Below, one piece after another: positions 5,410-32,035 of a stretch of 32,035 nt of DNA; the first letter of the stretch is position 1, and each line of letters opens with the position of its first letter. The notes under the pieces are model-generated. The model did no database searches. It saw nothing but the letters and a program-made list of their open reading frames with translations, and was not told the DNA's origin. The translations under genes were made by a program, and so were the position numbers. Source of the DNA: Myxococcales bacterium (lineage in GTDB: Bacteria; Myxococcota_A; Polyangia; JAHFDS01); contig JAHFDS010000035.1 in NCBI GenBank assembly GCA_023248855.1, positions 1 to 32,035 on the forward strand, written 5' to 3'.

Positions 5410-6000
5410 CTACGTCTTCTCGGGCTCCCAGAGCGGCTCGGGCTCGCCAGAGACGTGCGCGGCCCAGCGGCCCATCACGAACAGGGCATCCGAAAGCCGG
5501 TTCAGGTAGCGTACGCACTCGGGGCGGAGCGTCTCCTGCCGCGCGAGGGCCACCGTGAGCCGCTCCGCGCGCCGGCACACCGTGCGCGCCTGGTGCAGGT
5601 ACGACGACAACCAGCCGCCGCCCGGCAGCACGAAGCTGCGCAGCTCCGGCAGCTGGTCGTTCATCTCGTCGAGGTCGCGCTCGAGCGCCGCGATGTGCCG
5701 CTCCTCGACCACCGGCTGCTGCGGGTGGCGGTCTGCGGCCATGGTCGCGAGGTCGCTGCCGAGGTTGAAGAGCTCGTTCTGCACGCGCCGGAGGATGCTG
5801 TCGAAGCGCGCCTTCTCGGCGTCCGGCGCCTTGCCGTCGGCCGCCGCCTGGCGACAGAGGCCGAGGATCGCGGACAGCTCGTCCACGGTGCCGTAGGACT
5901 CGATGCGCAGCGAGTCCTTGGGGACCTTCTGGCCGCCGACGAGGCGCGTCTCGCCGCCGTCGCCGGCCTTGGTGTACACGCGGTTGATGCGGATGGTCAC
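5410..6000 (-). CDS. pduO: PduO-type ATP:cob(I)alamin adenosyltransferase
   Basis: Known reaction: transfer of adenosyl from ATP to cob(I)alamin, giving adenosylcobalamin for B12-dependent enzymes. The protein has 196 residues. It carries the family ATP-binding N-terminus [16 protein letters not shown], the segment [13 protein letters not shown], the active-site motif VCRRAER and the C-terminal [12 protein letters not shown]. These are the hallmarks of the PduO/MMAB fold, distinct from the P-loop CobA type. ATG 6000 is 41 bp from the divergent GTG of the phosphoesterase-NACHT gene, so the two promoters must overlap or lie within coding sequence. The gene ends 4 bp from the arsR-linked methyltransferase (convergent). 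The symbol is by family; no propanediol operon is present, and the same enzyme serves methylmalonyl-CoA mutase in many bacteria. Confidence 0.95.
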
Positions 6001-6041: not shown

Positions 6042-9000
6042 GTGGGCGCCGTCTTCCAGTGGCTGCACCTGACCGATCTGCACTGCGGCGTCGGCAAGCA
6101 GAGCTTCCTGTGGCCGAACGTACGCGACGCGTTCTGGAAGGACCTCGCCAAGCTGCACAAGGCCTTCGGGGCGATCGACGCCGTGTTGTTCACGGGCGAT
6201 CTCACGCAGCGAGGCAGCGCGCAGGAATTCGCGGAGCTCGACCGCGCGGTGCTGGGCTCGCTGTTCGAGCACCTCGGCCGGCTCGGGTCGCGCCCGTGCC
6301 TGGTCGCCATCCCTGGCAACCACGACCTCGTGCGCCCGCAGAAGGTCGGCGCCGCCGTGCGCATGCTGTCGCCCGAGCGCTTCGCCGAGGTGGCGGACGA
6401 GCTCTTCGAGCAGCCGGACAGCGAGTATCGAGCGGTCGTGCGCGCGGTGTTCGAGCCGTTCGAAGCGTGGCGCAAGGCCTGCAAGACCATCCCGAAGAAG
6501 GGCGCGACCGCCGGCCTGCTCCCCGGCGAAGCCGGCCTGACGCTCTCGGCGAATGGGCTCTCGGTCGGCATCGTGGGGCTGAACACGGCCTTCCTGCAGC
6601 TCGCCGCGGGCGACTATACCGGGCGCCTGCACCTCGACCCGCGGCAGCTCCACGCGGTCTGTAGCGGTGACCCGCCGGCGTTCTGCGAACGCCACGACGC
6701 CTGCCTGCTCTTGACGCACCATCCCCCCGACTGGCTCGATCCGCGCGCGCGCCAGGCGCTCGACACCGAGATCGCGCCGGCTGGCCGATTCGTGCACCTG
6801 TTCGGACATATGCATGAAAGCAGATATGAGAGCCGGGGCTATGGCGGGGGCCTGCTGCGGCACACCTGGCAGGGCAATTCGCTGTTCAGCCACGAGGCGT
6901 GGGGGGACCCTCCGCGCCTCGAGCGTCGCCACGGCTACGCCCTCGGGCGCATCGAGAAGTCGGGTGAGACCGTCACGCTGCGCCTCGTGCCCCGGCGCGC
7001 GAGCGAGGGCAAGAGCGGCTGGCGCTTCCAGCGCGACGAGAGCGCGGACCTGCCGCTCGAGGACGATGACGCGACGGCGCCGGTGCAGCTGTCGCGGGCG
7101 CGCGCCGCCACGCTCTCGGGCCGGCGCCCTGGCCGAAAGGTCAGGCCCGACGCCTCGCTCGAGGACTATCGCAAGACGCTCGCGTCGGCCTGCGGCACGC
7201 TCGAGCTGACCGCGCTGCCGCTCGATCCGCAGCTGGCCACGCGTCCCCCTTCGCTGCAGACGCTCTACATCCCGCAGCGCGTGGTGCGCGAGAGCCCGCA
7301 GGGAGCCCCCGAGCCAGCGCGCGAGTGGCAGCGGCCGACGCCGAGCGCCCCCGCCGAGGCGTTCGCGCCTCTGCTCGGCGCTGCACCTCGGCCGCGCCTG
7401 CTCGTGCTCGGCGAGCCTGGCAGCGGCAAGACGACGCTCCTGCACTGGATCGCGGGGGCGTACCTGCTGCGCCACGCGGCCCCGAGGGTCTGGTGCAGCT
7501 TGCCGGGTGCGGCTGCGCTCCCCGACGTCGACTGGACGCCGGTGCGGCTGCGTTGCCGCGATCTCGCGCTCTGTGCCGCGCCTGACTTCGACGAGCTCAT
7601 CCGGCAGGCCGTGCGGCGCCTCGAGACCGGGGCGAAGGCCAAGCCCATCGCTCGCGCGCTGCGGGTCTTGCTCGACGAAGGCCGGGCCATCTTGCTCGTC
7701 GATGGACTCGACGAGATCGCGGATCCAGTGGAGCGGGCGCGCTTCGTCGAGCAGCTCGAGGCCGTGTCGCGCCAGCTCGCGTCGGCCCCTATCGTGGTGA
7801 CGTCGCGCGCGGTCGGCTACCGGCAGACCACCCGGCACCTCGCCGGCTTCACCACGTTCACCCTGGCCGAGCTCGACGCCGCCGATCGCGCCGAGTTCGT
7901 GCGGCGGTTCAGCGAGGCCACGGAACCGACCGCGGAGCGTCGCAAGCAGCTCGCGACGCGCCTCGTACGCGCGCTCAAGGCCTCCGAGCGCGTGGCTCGC
8001 CTGGCCTCGAATCCCCTGTTGCTCGCCACGCTCGCCGTGGTGGCGCGCCGCGAGAGCCGCCTGCCGAGCCGTCGCCACAAGCTCTACGCCGAGGCGGTCA
8101 AGGTGCTCTTGCACTGGCGGCCCGAGGTCGATGCACCGCTCGACGAGGACGAGGTGCTCCCGCAGCTCGAATACGTCGCTCACGCGATGTGCGCGCGCGC
8201 CACGACGCAGCTGCGCAAGGACGAGCTCCTCGTGCTCTTCGAGGAGGTCCGCCGCGCGTATCCGAACATCCACGCGATCCACCGCCACGCCGGCGCGGAT
8301 ATTCTGCGGATGCTCGAGGCGCGCACGGGTCTCGTCGCCCAGGCCGGCGAGGTCTCGCACGACGGCCGCGCCGTCCCCGTGTACGAGCTCCGCCACCTGA
8401 GCATCCAGGAACATCTCGCCGCGCAGGCGCTCCTGTCAGGTCACCACGCGGGCTTCGATCGCAGCGTGCCGCTGGCCGCGCGGATCGGCGAGCTCGCGCG
8501 GCCAGTCGAGGGCGACCCTCCCGACGTGGCTTTTCAGTGGCGCGAGGTGGTGCGGCTGTGCATCGCCTCGTGCAACGACGGTGATGCGGACGCCCTGCTC
8601 GGTGCGGTCCTGGAGCCCGCCCCGGACGAGGCTCCCTCGAGCCAGTTGCCACGACTCGTCCTCGCGGCGCAGTGTCTCGCCGACGACCCGAACGTACGGC
8701 CGGCGATCGCGGCGCAGGTCCTCGGTGGCCTCGCGGGCGCGGTCGCGGAGCGGGGCAGCCTGGTGCGGCCCGCGCACCTGCGGTCGGCGGCTGCGGAGGT
8801 CGCGGTGTCGTCCTGGGCCGACCTGCTGGTGGAACAGCTCGCCGCGGCGGCGCTCGCGCACGGCGGCGGGACGCTGGGATGGGAGCAGCCGCTCCTCGCG
8901 GCGCTGGCTCGCACGCTGTCCAGCGGAAGCCCCAGGCGGGAATGGCTCGGCGTGCTGGTCTCGGATCTCGCGTGCAGCGACGAGCGAGCCGCGCGGGCCT

Positions 9001-9551
9001 GCCTGCTGCTCTTCGGAGCCAATGCCAATCGTACGACGCCCCCGTTGCGCGAGGAGATCGATCGACTGCTGGCCCTCGTCCGACGAGGGCCAGGGCTGTC
9101 CGAGCTGGCGAGCCAGGCGCTCGGCACGCTGGCGCAGGCCCGGGAAGGCCGGGACGATGGCCTGGTCCGGTACGGTCAGCAGCTCGTGCACCTCTTGGCG
9201 GAGGTGGAATCCGACTACGCGTGGGCCTCCCTCGCCATGGCCTGCGGCATTGCGCAGGCAGAGGCCGCGTTGCCACTCATCCGGGAAAAGGCCGGCCCGA
9301 ACGCGAGCCTGGTGGTGCGGATGGCGGCCCTGGCGAGCCTCGGGCGAATGCCGGCAGCGGCGAACGCCGCGGTCAGCGTCGCGAGCCTGTCGGATCCGCA
9401 CGCGACCGTCCGGAAGCTCGCGGCCAGGAGCGTTGGCGCGCTGTCCGACCCCGCCCTCGTGTCGCAGCTCGAGCCTCTGCTCGCCGACTCCGACGAATCC
9501 GTCCGCACCGCCGCGGCCGCGGCGATCGCTGCGTGCGGTCGCGCTGAATGA
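6042..9551 (+). CDS. Calcineurin-like phosphoesterase-NACHT NTPase-HEAT repeat protein (NLR-like, candidate defence protein)
   Basis: This 1169-residue fusion has four parts. (1) Residues 5-300 are a metallophosphoesterase with all metal-binding motifs: D12-L-H14, G-D53 in TGDLTQRG, G-N93-H94-D in PGNHD, H226/H227 in LLTHHPPDW, and G-H256-M-H258. (2) Residues 370-415 match the linker that often precedes bacterial NACHT domains (LQTLYIPQ). (3) Residues 450-800 are a NACHT NTPase: Walker A GEPGSGKTT (457-465), Walker B ILLVDGLDEIAD (550-561), sensor VVTSRAVGY (586-593) and the distal motif RHLSIQEHLAAQAL (784-797). (4) Residues 830-1169 are alpha-helical, with HEAT-like repeats clearest at 1085-1165. 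Family knowledge: such effector-NTPase-sensor proteins act like NLRs, with the repeats sensing and the N-terminal enzyme as effector. The substrate is unknown. GTG 6042 is the only usable start, since an in-frame stop lies at 6027. It appears to be a stand-alone gene. Confidence 0.92.
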   Translation: MGAVFQWLHLTDLHCGVGKQSFLWPNVRDAFWKDLAKLHKAFGAIDAVLFTGDLTQRGSAQEFAELDRAVLGSLFEHLGRLGSRPCLVAIPGNHDLVRPQKVGAAVRMLSPERFAEVADELFEQPDSEYRAVVRAVFEPFEAWRKACKTIPKKGATAGLLPGEAGLTLSANGLSVGIVGLNTAFLQLAAGDYTGRLHLDPRQLHAVCSGDPPAFCERHDACLLLTHHPPDWLDPRARQALDTEIAPAGRFVHLFGHMHESRYESRGYGGGLLRHTWQGNSLFSHEAWGDPPRLERRHGYALGRIEKSGETVTLRLVPRRASEGKSGWRFQRDESADLPLEDDDATAPVQLSRARAATLSGRRPGRKVRPDASLEDYRKTLASACGTLELTALPLDPQLATRPPSLQTLYIPQRVVRESPQGAPEPAREWQRPTPSAPAEAFAPLLGAAPRPRLLVLGEPGSGKTTLLHWIAGAYLLRHAAPRVWCSLPGAAALPDVDWTPVRLRCRDLALCAAPDFDELIRQAVRRLETGAKAKPIARALRVLLDEGRAILLVDGLDEIADPVERARFVEQLEAVSRQLASAPIVVTSRAVGYRQTTRHLAGFTTFTLAELDAADRAEFVRRFSEATEPTAERRKQLATRLVRALKASERVARLASNPLLLATLAVVARRESRLPSRRHKLYAEAVKVLLHWRPEVDAPLDEDEVLPQLEYVAHAMCARATTQLRKDELLVLFEEVRRAYPNIHAIHRHAGADILRMLEARTGLVAQAGEVSHDGRAVPVYELRHLSIQEHLAAQALLSGHHAGFDRSVPLAARIGELARPVEGDPPDVAFQWREVVRLCIASCNDGDADALLGAVLEPAPDEAPSSQLPRLVLAAQCLADDPNVRPAIAAQVLGGLAGAVAERGSLVRPAHLRSAAAEVAVSSWADLLVEQLAAAALAHGGGTLGWEQPLLAALARTLSSGSPRREWLGVLVSDLACSDERAARACLLLFGANANRTTPPLREEIDRLLALVRRGPGLSELASQALGTLAQAREGRDDGLVRYGQQLVHLLAEVESDYAWASLAMACGIAQAEAALPLIREKAGPNASLVVRMAALASLGRMPAAANAAVSVASLSDPHATVRKLAARSVGALSDPALVSQLEPLLADSDESVRTAAAAAIAACGRAE

Positions 9552-9624
9552 CCGGCCCCGAAGGCGCTCGTCGGCCGGTGACGACGGCCGCCCGCGCGCG
9601 GTACCATGAGGCCGCTTGCACTCG

Positions 9625-10272
9625 ATGGCGATCGACTTCCCGGACTGGGCCGCGCTCCTCGGGTTCTTGCAGACCGCGGAGCGTGGCGCCCGCTGCTTCG
9701 ACATCGGCAAGCCGCCGTCTCTGGGGCAGTTCGTGCTGCTCGAGGTGCGTGTGGGCGGGGTGGCGCGCGAGTACCTGCGGGGCCGCGTGACGTCGCTGCT
9801 CGGTGGCGTGGACGATCCCGAATGGATGCGCGGGATCGAGGTGCACTTCCTTGGCACCGAGGGCCCGAGGCTCGGCTACCTCGACAGGCTCGCGACCGGT
9901 CGGCTCGAGCAGGTGCGTCGCGAGCCCAGGCTGCCGGTGCGGCTGCGCGCCGTGGTCACGATCGATGACGAATCCAGCACCCACGCCGACGCGAGCGCGC
10001 TGGCCGAGGACATCGGCCGCTGGGGCGCCTTCCTGCGCACGTCGCTGCGCGTGGCGGTGGATGCGCACGTCTGGGTGGTGGTCTCGTCCGGCACGCCTCG
10101 TCTCGGCGAGCTCCGGATCCGCGCGCGTGTGGCCTGGGCCGGCACCGAGGGACTCGGCGTCTCCTTCGTGCCCTTCAACGAGACCGAGTGCGGCCACGTG
10201 ATCGCCTGGGTGGACGCGCTCACCGACGCGGTGCTCGAGGATCCCGGATCGTTCTGTCTGGCCGACGGCTGA
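9625..10272 (+). CDS. PilZ-like domain protein
   Basis: The protein has 215 residues from ATG 9625 (MAIDFPDWAALL); TTG 9616 is an in-frame alternative. Two beta-rich halves are visible. The first (about residues 20-80) resembles a PilZ-N or YcgR-N-like barrel (LGQFVLLEVRV, YLRGRVTSLL). The second (about 95-190) begins with RREPRLPVRLRAVV, matching the R-x-x-x-R c-di-GMP-binding turn. It continues with LAEDIGRWGAFLRT, a degenerate form of the D/N-x-S-x-x-G motif (Gly and the strand are kept, the Ser is replaced). Myxobacterial PilZ proteins commonly have this RR-x-PR-x-PV layout. Likely role: c-di-GMP-linked control of motility or envelope functions. Nucleotide binding is uncertain because the second motif is weak. 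Its stop codon is 4 bp from the stop of the convergent cheX-like gene. Confidence 0.7.
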   Translation: MAIDFPDWAALLGFLQTAERGARCFDIGKPPSLGQFVLLEVRVGGVAREYLRGRVTSLLGGVDDPEWMRGIEVHFLGTEGPRLGYLDRLATGRLEQVRREPRLPVRLRAVVTIDDESSTHADASALAEDIGRWGAFLRTSLRVAVDAHVWVVVSSGTPRLGELRIRARVAWAGTEGLGVSFVPFNETECGHVIAWVDALTDAVLEDPGSFCLADG

Positions 10273-10276
10273 CCGG

Positions 10277-11134
10277 CTACAAGACCCGCACGTCCAGGAC
10301 GCCCTCGGGGAAGTGCAGCGGGAACAGGTACCCTTCGCCCAGCGGGGGAGCGAGACCGTCGGTGGGCGGGCCGAGCTCCGCGCGCCTGCCCTGCCGCGCC
10401 CAGAGCGCGACCCCGTTGCCGCACACGAGGTTCGCGAACTCGCCGAAGGCGTCGTGGATCATGTCCACGCCGAGCGTCATGGCCTCGGCGCGAAAGAGCG
10501 CGCGCGCCAGACGACGCGCCACCGGCTCGCCGCAGGACAGGCTGTAGACGGCGCTCACTGCTCCCGAGATGTCGATGCCGACGGTCCAGGCGCGCGGCGC
10601 CGGCGGCGGCGGGGCCGGCATCCCGAGGCCCCACTTGCACTCGGCGTCGCACAAGCGGAGCGCGAGCCGCTGGGTGAGCGCCACCAGCATGGACAGCTCT
10701 TGCGCGAACGGCGCGTTGGCTGGCAGGGCGAGCTCGGTCATCCCGTAGCGCGCCTGGTCGGCCTTGAAGACGGCCAGCTCACGCTCGATGGCCTCCTTGT
10801 CGAGAAAGCCGAGCACCACGATGGCGCCGCCGAGGTACATGTGATCGTTCTGCTGCATCGTGACGAGCTCGTCGATCTGCGCGAGCGTCAGATACCCGAG
10901 CTCCATCGCGATCTCGCCGAAGCGGCGGTCCTCGGTGCGCTGGCGCGTGGCGATCTCCTCGGCCTGCTCCTGCGTGAGCAGACCGCGGCGCTGCGCATAG
11001 ACGCCGATCTTGTGGTTACGCGTCTCCTGCAACACGATCGCCGCCAGTAGCTGCTCGGGCGTGAGCAAGCCCCGTTCGAGCAGGTGCTGGCCGAAGAACC
11101 TGACGCTCAGAAAAGCACCTCGCTCACCCCTCAT
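10277..11134 (-). CDS. MshEN/GSPII_E-N-like repeats fused to a CheX-like phosphatase domain
   Basis: The 285-residue product has two regions. Residues 12-125 hold repeated helical motifs (FGQHLLERGLLTPEQLL, YAQRRGLLTQEQAEE, IAMELGYLTLAQIDEL, VVLGFLDKEAIE). They resemble the MshEN/GSPII_E N-terminal domain, which in some ATPases binds c-di-GMP. Residues 140-285 resemble CheX/CheC-family response-regulator phosphatases: a beta strand (WTVGIDISGAVSAVY), a helix and the catalytic-type E-x-x-N in FGEFANLVCGN (E232, N235). The domain ends with LHFPEGVLDVRVL. Its ATG (11134) overlaps the stop of the receiver gene by 11 bp, indicating translational coupling and a partner relationship. The likely role is dephosphorylating or otherwise tuning that receiver, with the N-terminal part adding a ligand or protein-binding input; this is inference. 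Confidence 0.72.
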   Translation of the reverse strand: MRGERGAFLSVRFFGQHLLERGLLTPEQLLAAIVLQETRNHKIGVYAQRRGLLTQEQAEEIATRQRTEDRRFGEIAMELGYLTLAQIDELVTMQQNDHMYLGGAIVVLGFLDKEAIERELAVFKADQARYGMTELALPANAPFAQELSMLVALTQRLALRLCDAECKWGLGMPAPPPPAPRAWTVGIDISGAVSAVYSLSCGEPVARRLARALFRAEAMTLGVDMIHDAFGEFANLVCGNGVALWARQGRRAELGPPTDGLAPPLGEGYLFPLHFPEGVLDVRVL

Positions 11135-11486
11135 TGTCCAGCGCGCGCAAGATCGTTTCGGGCTCGAAGGGCTTCGACAGGACGCCACGCGCGCCGAGCT
11201 TGAGGGCCTCGGAAACCTTCTCCGCGACGGCACCCACGGAGGACACCACGAAAACGCTAATCTCGGGGTGGCGCTGGTGCAGAAGGCGCAGCATCTGCAG
11301 GCCGTCCATCACCGGCATGACCAGATCGAGCAGGACGATGTCGGGTGCGAGCTCGGTGACAAGCTTGATGCCCTCGGCGCCGTTCTTGGCGTGGCCGGCC
11401 ACCGTGTAGCGGCCACTGCCCTCGACGATCTGCCTGAGCTGGCGGGCGATCGCTGCGCTGTCGTCGACCAAGAGCACCCGGCGCAT
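11124..11486 (-). CDS. Single-domain response regulator (CheY-like receiver)
   Basis: The 120-residue protein consists only of a receiver domain. Acidic pocket D8/D9 (LLVDDS), phospho-acceptor D54 (VLLDLVMP), conserved hydroxyl S82 (FVVSSVG) and Lys K105 (LSKPFEP) are all present, so it should be phosphorylatable. No output domain follows, so it must act through a partner, as CheY does. A strong ribosome binding site (GGGAGG, 5 nt before ATG) supports the start at 11486. The CheX-like gene overlaps its 3' end; the ExbD gene ends 56 bp upstream in the same direction. No histidine kinase lies in the window. A role in switching the adjacent proton-driven motor is a hypothesis from position only. 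Confidence 0.93.
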   Translation of the reverse strand: MRRVLLVDDSAAIARQLRQIVEGSGRYTVAGHAKNGAEGIKLVTELAPDIVLLDLVMPVMDGLQMLRLLHQRHPEISVFVVSSVGAVAEKVSEALKLGARGVLSKPFEPETILRALDNEG

Positions 11487-15222: not shown

Positions 15223-15404
15223 AGGAATCCCAGGGCATTCGTGACGGTGCCCACCCCGGCGCACAGGCACCGACACGATGCCGCAATGCGTCGTCACATG
15301 GGACAGGCTCACTGAAACTCGTACCGGCATGGCGCTGCGCGCAGATGGAGGCGAGCGGGAGCGAGCCGCAAGGGCGTAGCGAAGCGAAGACGCAGGATGG
15401 GGGG
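15223..15404. other. Non-coding gap between the VWA lipoprotein and the penicillin-binding protein genes
   Basis: No convincing gene is seen. The first half looks like ordinary leader DNA. From about 15343 the sequence becomes repetitive (gagcgagccgcaagg, then gcgaagcgaagacgc). Its reverse complement, ccttgcggctcgct, is also found at 20785-20798 at the end of the 99-bp repeat, so this is probably another member of a dispersed intergenic repeat family. It runs directly into the hairpin cluster at 15405. Confidence 0.5.
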
Positions 15405-15476
15405 CCCGGATGGGCTTTGCCCATCCGGGGGAAGGGCAGTGTGCCCTTCCTGGTGGCCGGCTTCCGAGCCGGCCAC
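15405..15476. repeat. Cluster of three consecutive perfect hairpins
   Basis: Three hairpins lie head to tail: 15405-15429 (11-bp stem CCCGGATGGGC, loop TTT), 15430-15450 (9-bp stem GGAAGGGCA, loop GTG) and 15453-15476 (10-bp stem GTGGCCGGCT, loop TCCG). All stems are perfect. The cluster begins 6 bp after the stop codon of the penicillin-binding protein gene on the minus strand, so it would form in the 3' end of that mRNA. There it could stop transcription or protect the message. No T-run follows. Confidence 0.85.
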
Positions 15477-15482
15477 TCGCAA

Positions 15483-18317
15483 CTAGAACACCTCGTCCGT
15501 CCCCATGCTCGACTCACCCTTCTTGCCCTTGGCGGAGGCGAACGTGGCGGGCAACGTGCCGCGCTTGAAGGGCGCGAGGATGGACGAGCCGTCGCTCGGG
15601 GAGGCCGGCTTGCCTGTCACATGCGACGCGCGCACGAAGAGGATCCCGGGCGGCGCCGCGAAATCGCGGATGGGCGTCGGCGGGTGGGCCGCGCGCATGA
15701 AGTCCAGCCAGAAGGGCAGGGCGGTCGAGCCGCCGGTGGAGTTCGGGCCGATGGGCATGAAGTTGTCGCGGCCGACCCACACCACCGCGAACAGGTCCGG
15801 CGTGTAGCCGACGAACCAGTTGTCGCGGAAGCTCTGCGACGTGCCGGTCTTGCCGGCCGCGGGGCGGCCGAGCGCCTGGGCTGCCTTGCCGGTGCCGAAC
15901 TGCACGACGCCCTTCATGAGATCGACCATGAGGTACGCGGTCTCGGCGCCGATCTTCCGCTTGGGTGGCGGGGGCCTGGTGTGGTCCTCGAGCACCTCGC
16001 CGTCGGCGTCCACGACCTTGAGCACGAACAGCTGCGGCACATCGAGGCCACCGTTCGGGAACGTCGACTCCGCGTAGGCGACCTCCATCGGCGAGACGTC
16101 GATGGCGCCGAGGCAGATCGACATCGAGCGCGGGATCGGCGAGGTCAGGCCGAGGGTGCGCATCCATTCGATCTCGTTGTCGACGCCGATCTGCGCGAGC
16201 AGCTGCGCGGCGACCGTGTTGAGCGACTTCGCGAGCGCGGTCTTGAGCGTGACCGCCCCGAGGAACTCGTTCTTGTAGTTGTGCGGCGACCAGGTGCCCG
16301 ACGAGGTCTGGAACGACACCGGCTTGTCGTGGACGATCGACAGCACGTTGACGACGCCGCGATCGAGCGCGGCCGAGTAGATGAAGGGCTTGACCGCGCT
16401 GCCGATCTGCCGGCGAGCCTGCGTGGCGCGGTTGAACTGGCTCTGGAAGTAGTCGTAGCCGCCGACCATGGCCTTGAGGTGCCCCGTTTTCGGCTCGACT
16501 GCGACCAGGGCCGCCTGCAGGTCCGGCTGGTGCGCGAGCACGACCTCCTTCTGCGGGATCTTCTCGGTCTTCTTGCCCTTTCTCACGATCTTCGGGGGCT
16601 TGTCGACGACGCGCACCGCGAGCACGTCGCCCACCTCGACGTGCGCGATCTTGCGCGGCTTGGCCTTCTCGCCCTTGACCTTGCTGGCGGCGGCCTTGCT
16701 CGCTGCAGCGCGCTTCTCGCGGGCGCCGAGGACCTTGTCGTTGGCGCGCGAGGACCAGTTGCGGACGCGCGACGAGTCGAGGTCGTTGATGGGGATGCGG
16801 GTGTTCCCGACCGCCACGATGGCCTTGGGTTTGAGGGCGACCACCAGGCCGAGCACCGGCTGATCGGGCGGCGGCGCCTTGGGGTCCATCACGCGCGCGC
16901 CCTTGGTGGCGTCGGGCTTGGGCGCCTGGGCGACCCTGTCGCCCTCGATCACCGGCTTGGTCTTGCCGGCCTCGGCCTTCTGCTTCTGCCTGGCGGCCTC
17001 GGCGGCCCTGGCCTCGGGCGAGCTCGCGATCACCGCGGCGTCGGGCGGCTCGGGGGCCTCCTCGTCGTCGACGACGGCTGGCGGCTTGGTCAGGCGCGCC
17101 AGCTCCTCCGACGAGAAGGGCTTGGCCGGCTCCTTCTCCCAGCGCGCGCGCGCCTCGGGCGATTCGACGCGCCCGACCGGGCCGCGGAACGAATACTTGC
17201 GCGCGATCTCCTCGAGGTTCGAGCGCACGGCCACCTCGGCCGCGCGCTGCATCGACGCGTCGAGCGTCGTGAAGATCTTGAGGCCCCGATCGAAGAGCTC
17301 CTTGCCACCGTACGTCTGCTGCGCGTACTTGCGCACGTGCTCGACGAAGTAGGGCGCGGCCACCTTGGACAGCGGCGATTCGCGCGAGATGAGCGCGATG
17401 GGCTCGTGGCGCGCGGCGTCCGCGACGCCCTTCGAGATGAAGCCGAGCTCGAGCATGCGATCGAGCACGTAGCCCTGACGGAGCTTGCTGCGCTTGAAGT
17501 TCACGTAGGGGGAGTCGCGCGAGGGGGCCTTCGGCAGGCCCGCCAGGATCGCCGCCTCGGCGACCGTGAGGTCCTCGACGTTCTTGCCGTAGTAGGCCTC
17601 GGCCGCGGCCTGCACGCCGTAGGCGGCGTGGCCGAGGTAGACGTGGTTCAAGTAGATGGTGAGGATCTGGTCCTTGGACAGGTCCTTCTCGATGCGCCGC
17701 GCCAGGATGGCCTCGCGGATCTTGCGCACGAGCTTCTTCTCGCCGGAGAGCAGCATGAGCTTGGCGACCTGCTGCGTGATGGTCGAGCCGCCCTGGCGCA
17801 TGGCGCCGGCCTTGAAGTTCTCGTAGGCGGCGCGCGCGATGCCGATCGGATCGAGGCCGCCGTGCTCGTAGAAGCGGTTGTCCTCGCCGGCGACGAAGGC
17901 CTGCTGCACGTGGCGTGGGATGCGCGAAAACGGCACGAGCACGCGCCTCTGCAGGAAGAACTCGCCGATCAGCTCGCCGTGGATGTCGTACACGCGCGAG
18001 GCCCGCGACGGGCGGTAGTCGAGCAGCGTCGACAGCGTCGCCGGCAGATCGCGCGAGAACTCGCGGTAGGCGTACCAGCCGAAGCCCGAGGCGACGGTGC
18101 CGCCGACGAGGACCATGAGCACGAGGAAACGCCAGACCTTGAAGCGCTTCTTGCGCCGCGGCCGCCTGGCCTTCTGCTTGCCCGCGGTGGCGGGCGTCGT
18201 GGTCGGAGGGCCGACCGGCGGGTCCGAGCCTGCGCCAGGCTCCGGCCCTCGGCCGGGCCCACCCTTGTTTTCCGGCCCTTGGCCGGATTTTCTTGAACCG
18301 TCCCCAGTCGTGGCCAC
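15483..18317 (-). CDS. Class A penicillin-binding protein (PBP1A-type transglycosylase/transpeptidase)
   Basis: The 944-residue bifunctional peptidoglycan synthase has a disordered Gly/Pro-rich and then basic cytoplasmic tail (1-60) and one membrane anchor (62-83). The GT51 glycosyltransferase domain (about 105-285) carries the catalytic Glu in AGEDNRFYEHGG (E145) and the family motif GGSTITQQVAK. Between the domains is a long insert (about 350-600) with Lys/Ala/Pro/Glu low complexity and an OB-like portion. The transpeptidase domain (about 600-880) has S640-A-V-K643 (nucleophile Ser), S698-L-N and the KTGTS box (823-827). All catalytic residues are present. Start GTG 18317 is the first available; no later start precedes the membrane helix convincingly. 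The first 35 residues overlap two short palindromic repeats. The gene is divergent from the TPR gene. Confidence 0.95.
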   Translation of the reverse strand: MATTGDGSRKSGQGPENKGGPGRGPEPGAGSDPPVGPPTTTPATAGKQKARRPRRKKRFKVWRFLVLMVLVGGTVASGFGWYAYREFSRDLPATLSTLLDYRPSRASRVYDIHGELIGEFFLQRRVLVPFSRIPRHVQQAFVAGEDNRFYEHGGLDPIGIARAAYENFKAGAMRQGGSTITQQVAKLMLLSGEKKLVRKIREAILARRIEKDLSKDQILTIYLNHVYLGHAAYGVQAAAEAYYGKNVEDLTVAEAAILAGLPKAPSRDSPYVNFKRSKLRQGYVLDRMLELGFISKGVADAARHEPIALISRESPLSKVAAPYFVEHVRKYAQQTYGGKELFDRGLKIFTTLDASMQRAAEVAVRSNLEEIARKYSFRGPVGRVESPEARARWEKEPAKPFSSEELARLTKPPAVVDDEEAPEPPDAAVIASSPEARAAEAARQKQKAEAGKTKPVIEGDRVAQAPKPDATKGARVMDPKAPPPDQPVLGLVVALKPKAIVAVGNTRIPINDLDSSRVRNWSSRANDKVLGAREKRAAASKAAASKVKGEKAKPRKIAHVEVGDVLAVRVVDKPPKIVRKGKKTEKIPQKEVVLAHQPDLQAALVAVEPKTGHLKAMVGGYDYFQSQFNRATQARRQIGSAVKPFIYSAALDRGVVNVLSIVHDKPVSFQTSSGTWSPHNYKNEFLGAVTLKTALAKSLNTVAAQLLAQIGVDNEIEWMRTLGLTSPIPRSMSICLGAIDVSPMEVAYAESTFPNGGLDVPQLFVLKVVDADGEVLEDHTRPPPPKRKIGAETAYLMVDLMKGVVQFGTGKAAQALGRPAAGKTGTSQSFRDNWFVGYTPDLFAVVWVGRDNFMPIGPNSTGGSTALPFWLDFMRAAHPPTPIRDFAAPPGILFVRASHVTGKPASPSDGSSILAPFKRGTLPATFASAKGKKGESSMGTDEVF
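18242..18286. repeat. Two CCGGCC-N3-GGCCGG palindromes inside the PBP N-terminal coding region
   Basis: Perfect 6-bp stems with 3-nt loops lie at 18242-18256 (loop CTC) and 18272-18286 (loop CTT), 30 bp apart. The same core with loop GAA is found at 3542-3556 in the methyltransferase-queC gap, where the two copies are 29 bp apart. Here they fall within codons for the Gly/Pro-rich tail of the penicillin-binding protein, suggesting the tail was partly built from, or invaded by, an intergenic-type repeat. Confidence 0.7.

Positions 18318-24487: not shown

Positions 24488-24491
<4 letters not shown>
22818..24491 (-). CDS. OmpA-family outer-membrane protein with thrombospondin type-3 repeats
   Basis: From TTG 24491 the protein has 557 residues. 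It starts with a signal peptide (TRRLVAVAAAAAFLQLG, cleavage near AAAQ at residue 23). Residues about 30-300 form a predicted beta-barrel region (alternating strands such as GLELALLGTVSIPTGKSSAY). Residues about 300-430 hold TSP type-3 calcium-binding motifs (DRDQDGILDDEDKCPDD, DNDQDGVPDVADKCPN and two or three more). A run of nine Pro follows, then a C-terminal OmpA/Pal peptidoglycan-binding domain (about 440-550) with RVEGHTDSRG, LSQQRAEAVVRYL and GRDRNRRVEF. Known layout: an OprF-like porin tied to the cell wall. The TTG start is chosen because it directly precedes the signal peptide and overlaps the stop of the giant gene in TTGA. This implies translational coupling to that surface protein. 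Confidence 0.92.

Positions 24492-32035
<7,544 letters not shown>

Follow-up and report, generated by a model that had tools for sequence, protein, structure and literature searches.

The gene at positions 6042..9551 of the forward strand of the window (the whole stretch of 32,035 nucleotides from a Myxococcales bacterium that was analysed) encodes a three-domain protein of 1169 amino acids, in which a calcineurin-like metallophosphoesterase (MPE) is joined to a NACHT STAND NTPase and a C-terminal array of HEAT-like repeats, with the active sites intact. We regard this MPE-NACHT-HEAT protein, with a probability of roughly 0.77, as a single-protein NLR-like receptor for defence against invaders, which would act by abortive infection through the attack of its MPE domain on a phosphodiester or nucleotide. 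An arrangement of effector, NACHT and sensor had been proposed in an earlier note made from the sequence alone, and this reading holds in view of the precedent set by the DS-8 protein, the shuffling of MPE domains among STAND modules, the carriage of related genes by prophages, the swapped sensors of two orthologues and the structural matches to NLR proteins.

The single open frame starts with GTG and shows GC contents of 0.77/0.52/0.89 at the three codon positions, a pattern typical of genuine coding sequence at 70.7% GC. Its N-terminus is well placed, because only four codons separate the GTG from an upstream in-frame stop and the homologues share the same start point. Neither a promoter nor a terminator was found in a scan. 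All Pfam matches lie above the curated cut-offs, namely Metallophos with 38.2 bits, NACHT (PF05729) with 45.9 bits against a cut-off of 26.7, HEAT_2 with 28.0 bits and HEAT with 24.8 bits, which bears out the earlier claim that one polypeptide combines a phosphoesterase, a NACHT module and a C-terminal helical/HEAT region.

The MPE effector occupies residues 1-331 (6042..7034, forward strand), as indicated by its match to PF00149, a structure model, the invariance of residues in relatives and Foldseek comparisons. The metal motifs of the superfamily (DxH, GD, GNH(D/E), H and GHxH) are all present here and in each of 48 aligned relatives from the same clade, with D12, H14, D53, N93, H94, H226, H256 and H258 invariant in 48/48. 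The catalytic residues named in the earlier note therefore stand with one exception, H227: this position is occupied by H in 35 and by Q in 13 of the 48 relatives, and the invariant ligand is the neighbouring H226. The AF2 model of the domain (pLDDT 90, pTM 0.91) finds its best enzymatically characterized PDB neighbours among phosphodiesterases, i.e., Rv0805, acid sphingomyelinase (ASMase), SMPDL3A and GpdQ; 5'-nucleotidase is also among the best characterized neighbours, and Mre11 is ranked lower. The Foldseek matches further include Lmo2642, with an integrative model of the YYDD-YYDB pair in first place. The class III cyclic nucleotide phosphodiesterase Rv0805 and SMPDL3A/acid sphingomyelinase share the same metal motifs and belong to the closest solved folds, but they are stand-alone enzymes and only 10-18% identical to the MPE domain in structural alignments.

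Since the MPE superfamily is functionally broad, homology does not fix the substrate of the domain. In a profile search, Rv0805, Lmo2642 and SbcD/Mre11 were about equally near, but a phosphodiesterase is favoured over a nuclease because Foldseek ranks the phosphodiesterases above Mre11. The activity is thus probably that of a nucleotidyl or cyclic-nucleotide phosphodiesterase, with a nuclease as the next candidate, albeit an unlikely one, and with phospholipids or phosphoproteins as less likely targets. The best surviving alternative to the main reading differs from it only in this substrate, proposing that an SbcD/Mre11-like MPE degrades DNA once activated. The profile matches to SbcD/Mre11 chains, which are about as good as those to Rv0805, speak for it, as does the use of DNase effectors of the PD-(D/E)XK type by bNACHT25/32 (PMC12169576). 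However, the sequence matches to SbcD/Mre11 span only the shared N-terminal metal motifs, and with the structural ranking given above we consider defence by a nuclease rather improbable.

The MPE domain is followed by a poorly conserved linker (residues about 332-440; 7035..7361, forward strand), which shows 18-25% identity to the homologues and was modelled with low confidence (pLDDT < 50 over residues 352-449). The NACHT STAND NTPase module comprises residues about 441-830 (7362..8531, forward strand), as judged from Pfam, Foldseek and its motifs: alignment reveals a Walker A motif at G457-T464 with K463, a Walker B motif (LLVDGLDE, 551-558) and a sensor-1-like VVTSR at residue 585, in keeping with the NACHT NTPase named in the earlier note. 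Apart from MPE proteins, human NLRP7, rabbit NOD2 and NLRP3 are among the top Foldseek matches of the full-length model, which is of moderate quality (pLDDT 65). The nearest NACHT module outside the MPE-NACHT family occurs in a protein encoded on an Agrobacterium plasmid and annotated as SIR2 family, in which SIR2 takes the effector slot. SIR2 is a known defence effector, and in other STAND proteins this slot is filled by SIR2, TIR or nucleases.

The C-terminal sensor (residues 831-1169; 8532..9548, forward strand) is the least conserved part of the protein in comparison with its homologues. Residues 831-1164 appear as consecutive alpha-hairpins in the full-length model, and the HEAT_2 and HEAT matches above cut-off fall within residues 1115-1166, which agrees with the helical/HEAT sensor-like region described in the earlier note. 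Full-length relatives are found in Alteromonadales (L018 and L020) and in a planctomycete (L019, which is interrupted), and more distant ones form a tandem pair in another planctomycete locus (L025). The two marine orthologues from Alteromonadales, encoded at 793-4491 of L018 and 4407-8132 of L020, both lie beside suhB, and their MPE and NACHT parts are 87-91% identical (dN 0.03-0.10). From about residue 840 onwards, the identity of their sensors falls to 36-46% with a dN of 0.39-0.60 and a dS that is saturated or nearly so, whereas the adjoining suhB genes differ by a dN of 0.02 and a dS of 0.26. The rise of dS at the sensor boundary suggests that the sensor was replaced by recombination and not just altered by fast substitution. 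Such a swap would be the pattern expected from an arms race at a recognition surface, and turnover of this kind fits poorly with a ligand that is internal and constant. The orthologue pair, with its near-identical effector and NACHT parts and its different sensors, offers a ready-made means to map the cue of each sensor.

A view on the relatives of the MPE domain shows that it is not tied to this architecture. A scan of species-representative genomes yielded 42 loci, most of which match only residues 1-350, and the clade was sampled with 48 members for the alignment and the MPE tree. These are spread across many phyla and carry about eight or more kinds of partners, including NACHT with or without a C-terminal FGE/sulfatase-modifying-factor domain, NB-ARC with TPR, nSTAND5, nSTAND1, AAA_35, caspase, a PfkB-like domain and a form of roughly 1100 amino acids with TPR-like repeats. 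The fusion partners are intermixed in the MPE tree, and three relatives from the class join a different MPE clade to a related NACHT; together with the SIR2-bearing NACHT protein, these features indicate that effector and switch have been exchanged as modules.

Some members of the clade deserve separate mention. The tandem MPE-NACHT proteins of L025 (7926-11627 and 12839-17113) are about 80% identical, and the first of them ends in an FGE-sulfatase (lectin-fold) domain, a type that is diversified by retroelements elsewhere. In L022 (7974-10160) and L027 (7992-10151, assigned by clustering), the MPE is joined to a caspase (Peptidase_C14), and these chains may represent two putative effectors in one protein. 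In L028 from Nannocystis (7050-9065), the MPE lies C-terminal to about 315 residues without a convincing known domain.

As had been noted earlier, the gene begins only 41 bp from a divergent housekeeping gene, which turns out to encode a cobalamin adenosyltransferase (5410..6000, reverse strand; PF01923, E 1.3e-59) and lies outside the system. The adenosyltransferase is present in 50/59 class-level genomes, while the full-length MPE-NACHT-HEAT gene occurs only in its own genome when the top candidates of each of the 59 genomes are scored. The data therefore do not show a vertically conserved gene in a fixed housekeeping position, the outcome that the earlier note had considered contrary to its proposal. 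The suggested nature of the gene as an acquired cassette stands as far as horizontal distribution is concerned, with the gene absent from the top candidates scored in 58 relatives and its nearest full-length homologues located in other phyla, but not in the sense of a recent foreign insert: its GC content is 0.726 compared with 0.704 in the rest of the window, its codon use is native, and base composition lends no support to a recent acquisition. As judged from these sequence features, it is probably a solitary, old horizontal acquisition. Its neighbours in the window are housekeeping genes with no known defence genes among them, and the locus is not a defence island, which counts against a role in defence, as does the native composition; a PADLOC survey of the genes adjoining the homologues, which had no control set, recovered defence genes only now and then, Septu PtuA/PtuB among them.

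No match was obtained in the INPHARED phage records, and two viral contigs of IMG/VR, both representing prophages, hold a gene of the MPE clade. On one of these it is flanked by phage tail genes and by the repressor/replication region; on the other, its neighbours are an integrase, a repressor and a CII-like gene. Anti-phage systems are known to be carried at cargo positions of prophages (PMC9122126). In L111, an AT-rich gene of the clade (7974-11309, GC3 0.31) lies beside tail genes of a GC-rich prophage (GC3 about 0.8) and looks like a recent cargo insertion because of this difference in composition.

The locus also bears on a second alternative, namely that the protein is a STAND protein with a signalling or regulatory task in a bacterium of social habit and complex development. 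The MPE would then tune cyclic nucleotides in response to an internal ligand, with the adjacent genes for PilZ, CheX and a response regulator as its context. A PilZ-domain gene indeed follows on the same strand after 64 bp (9616..10272, PF07238), the nearest solved relatives of the MPE include class III cNMP phosphodiesterases such as Rv0805, and NACHT proteins abound in the genome (15 matches). However, nothing indicates that the PilZ gene belongs to the system: it is absent beside the full-length homologues in L018, L019 and L020 and non-syntenic in relatives, and it was rejected as a co-operonic partner. With the absence of the full-length gene from the top candidates scored in the 58 class-level relatives, and with prophage carriage of the MPE clade and sensor swapping fitting a conflict better, a regulatory role seems quite unlikely. 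As to the NACHT proteins of the genome, about 15 NACHT-domain frames were counted, most of them 880-1450 amino acids long, and none of these was found in a whole-protein search with the MPE-NACHT-HEAT protein.

Two further features of the window were observed. The reverse-strand gene at 24488-32011 adjoins an OmpA-family gene and codes for a protein of 2507 amino acids with Sushi (17 stretches), Calx-beta and TSP3 repeats; so many Sushi repeats look unusual in a bacterium. At 15345-18296 (forward strand) and 15483-18317 (reverse strand), two overlapping frames of 983 and 944 amino acids run in opposite directions, the former without a Pfam match and the latter with the codon statistics of a gene.

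The combination of MPE and NACHT is already known through DS-8 (DefensePredictor; Science 2026), a single E. coli protein composed of a metallophosphatase and a NACHT module, in which mutation of either part abolishes phage defence (PMC13092281). In DS-9, a HAD partner accompanies a related phosphatase. Like DS-8 (NF053861), the protein described here carries an N-terminal metallophosphatase, with its catalytic residues intact, followed by NACHT in the same chain, and both NF053861 and PDC-S60 were matched through the MPE, which might suggest bona fide orthology to this validated protein of E. coli. The full-length score against NF053861 is only 60.1 bits compared with a cut-off of 790, however, and the pairwise comparison with a true DS-8 homologue of the same class (L064, 836 bits) is not significant, giving 26 bits (E 0.013) over the MPE motif only. 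DS-8 orthology was rejected on the model score and the pairwise comparison and is very improbable; the same values identify the MPE-NACHT-HEAT protein as a lineage separate from DS-8. Its MPE falls into the 48-member clade apart from that of DS-8 (SH-aLRT 99), with an exact placement relative to DS-8 that is unsure because of the long DS-8 branches. A decayed or non-functional remnant, as might be imagined from interrupted homologues such as L019, can practically be dismissed in view of the 1169-residue open frame, its normal codon statistics and the intactness of every catalytic motif.

Further parallels exist with other conflict systems. The tripartite layout of effector, NACHT and repeats is shared with bNACHT proteins such as bNACHT25/32, which differ in using the PD-(D/E)XK DNase instead of a di-metal phosphoesterase. 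Computational prediction has assigned calcineurin domains an effector role at the N-terminus of STAND-FGS and TRADD-N proteins (PMC8195603), and a calcineurin-type effector precedes a STAND NTPase in these as well as in the present protein; the relatives in L025 and L061 exhibit the NACHT-FGE form, whereas the protein of the window ends in HEAT-like repeats. Calcineurin/MPE domains are also the commonest effectors in GAP1-N1 GTPase conflict systems (PMC7159879), and the MPE likewise acts as the effector in the systems composed of MPE and GASH/DO-GTPase, which are NTP-dependent conflict systems. There, however, it is encoded by a separate gene beside GASH, and no GASH/DO-GTPase genes adjoin the gene of the window. 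An arrangement of this kind was observed on an IncR plasmid of Klebsiella pneumoniae (L060, 5992-8347), where a metallophosphoesterase gene is directly followed by a GASH gene. Finally, a DGR target joining metallophosphoesterase, NACHT and vWA has been described (PMC10907252).

As an NLR-like defence receptor, the MPE-NACHT-HEAT protein would be expected to operate in four steps, of which the trigger, the NACHT-driven assembly, the substrate and the anti-phage function itself are predicted. Its C-terminal HEAT-like array would bind a cue of infection, which is probably either a protein of the phage or a host protein altered by infection. By analogy to bacterial and animal NACHT proteins, binding of the cue would then free the NACHT module, allowing the exchange of ADP for ATP and oligomerization. 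The resulting clustering may switch on the N-terminal di-metal phosphoesterase, the active site of which is intact, and the activated enzyme would hydrolyse a pool of phosphodiesters or nucleotides needed by the cell or the phage, leading to abortive infection.

What makes these observations interesting is not so much the single gene as the broad range of the MPE effector clade and the molecule that it would destroy. Phosphoesterase effectors are not confined to one E. coli system (DS-8), as a second, distinct MPE clade occurs with human-type NACHT, plant-type NB-ARC and caspase partners. It may be speculated, tentatively, that this clade is a general-purpose death or signal-destroying immune effector which was recruited several times over and separately from DS-8, and whose substrate is unlike those of all characterized effectors (NAD+, DNA, membranes and proteins), for example a dedicated nucleotide messenger. 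Naming the target of the MPE would explain a whole set of predicted immune proteins at once.
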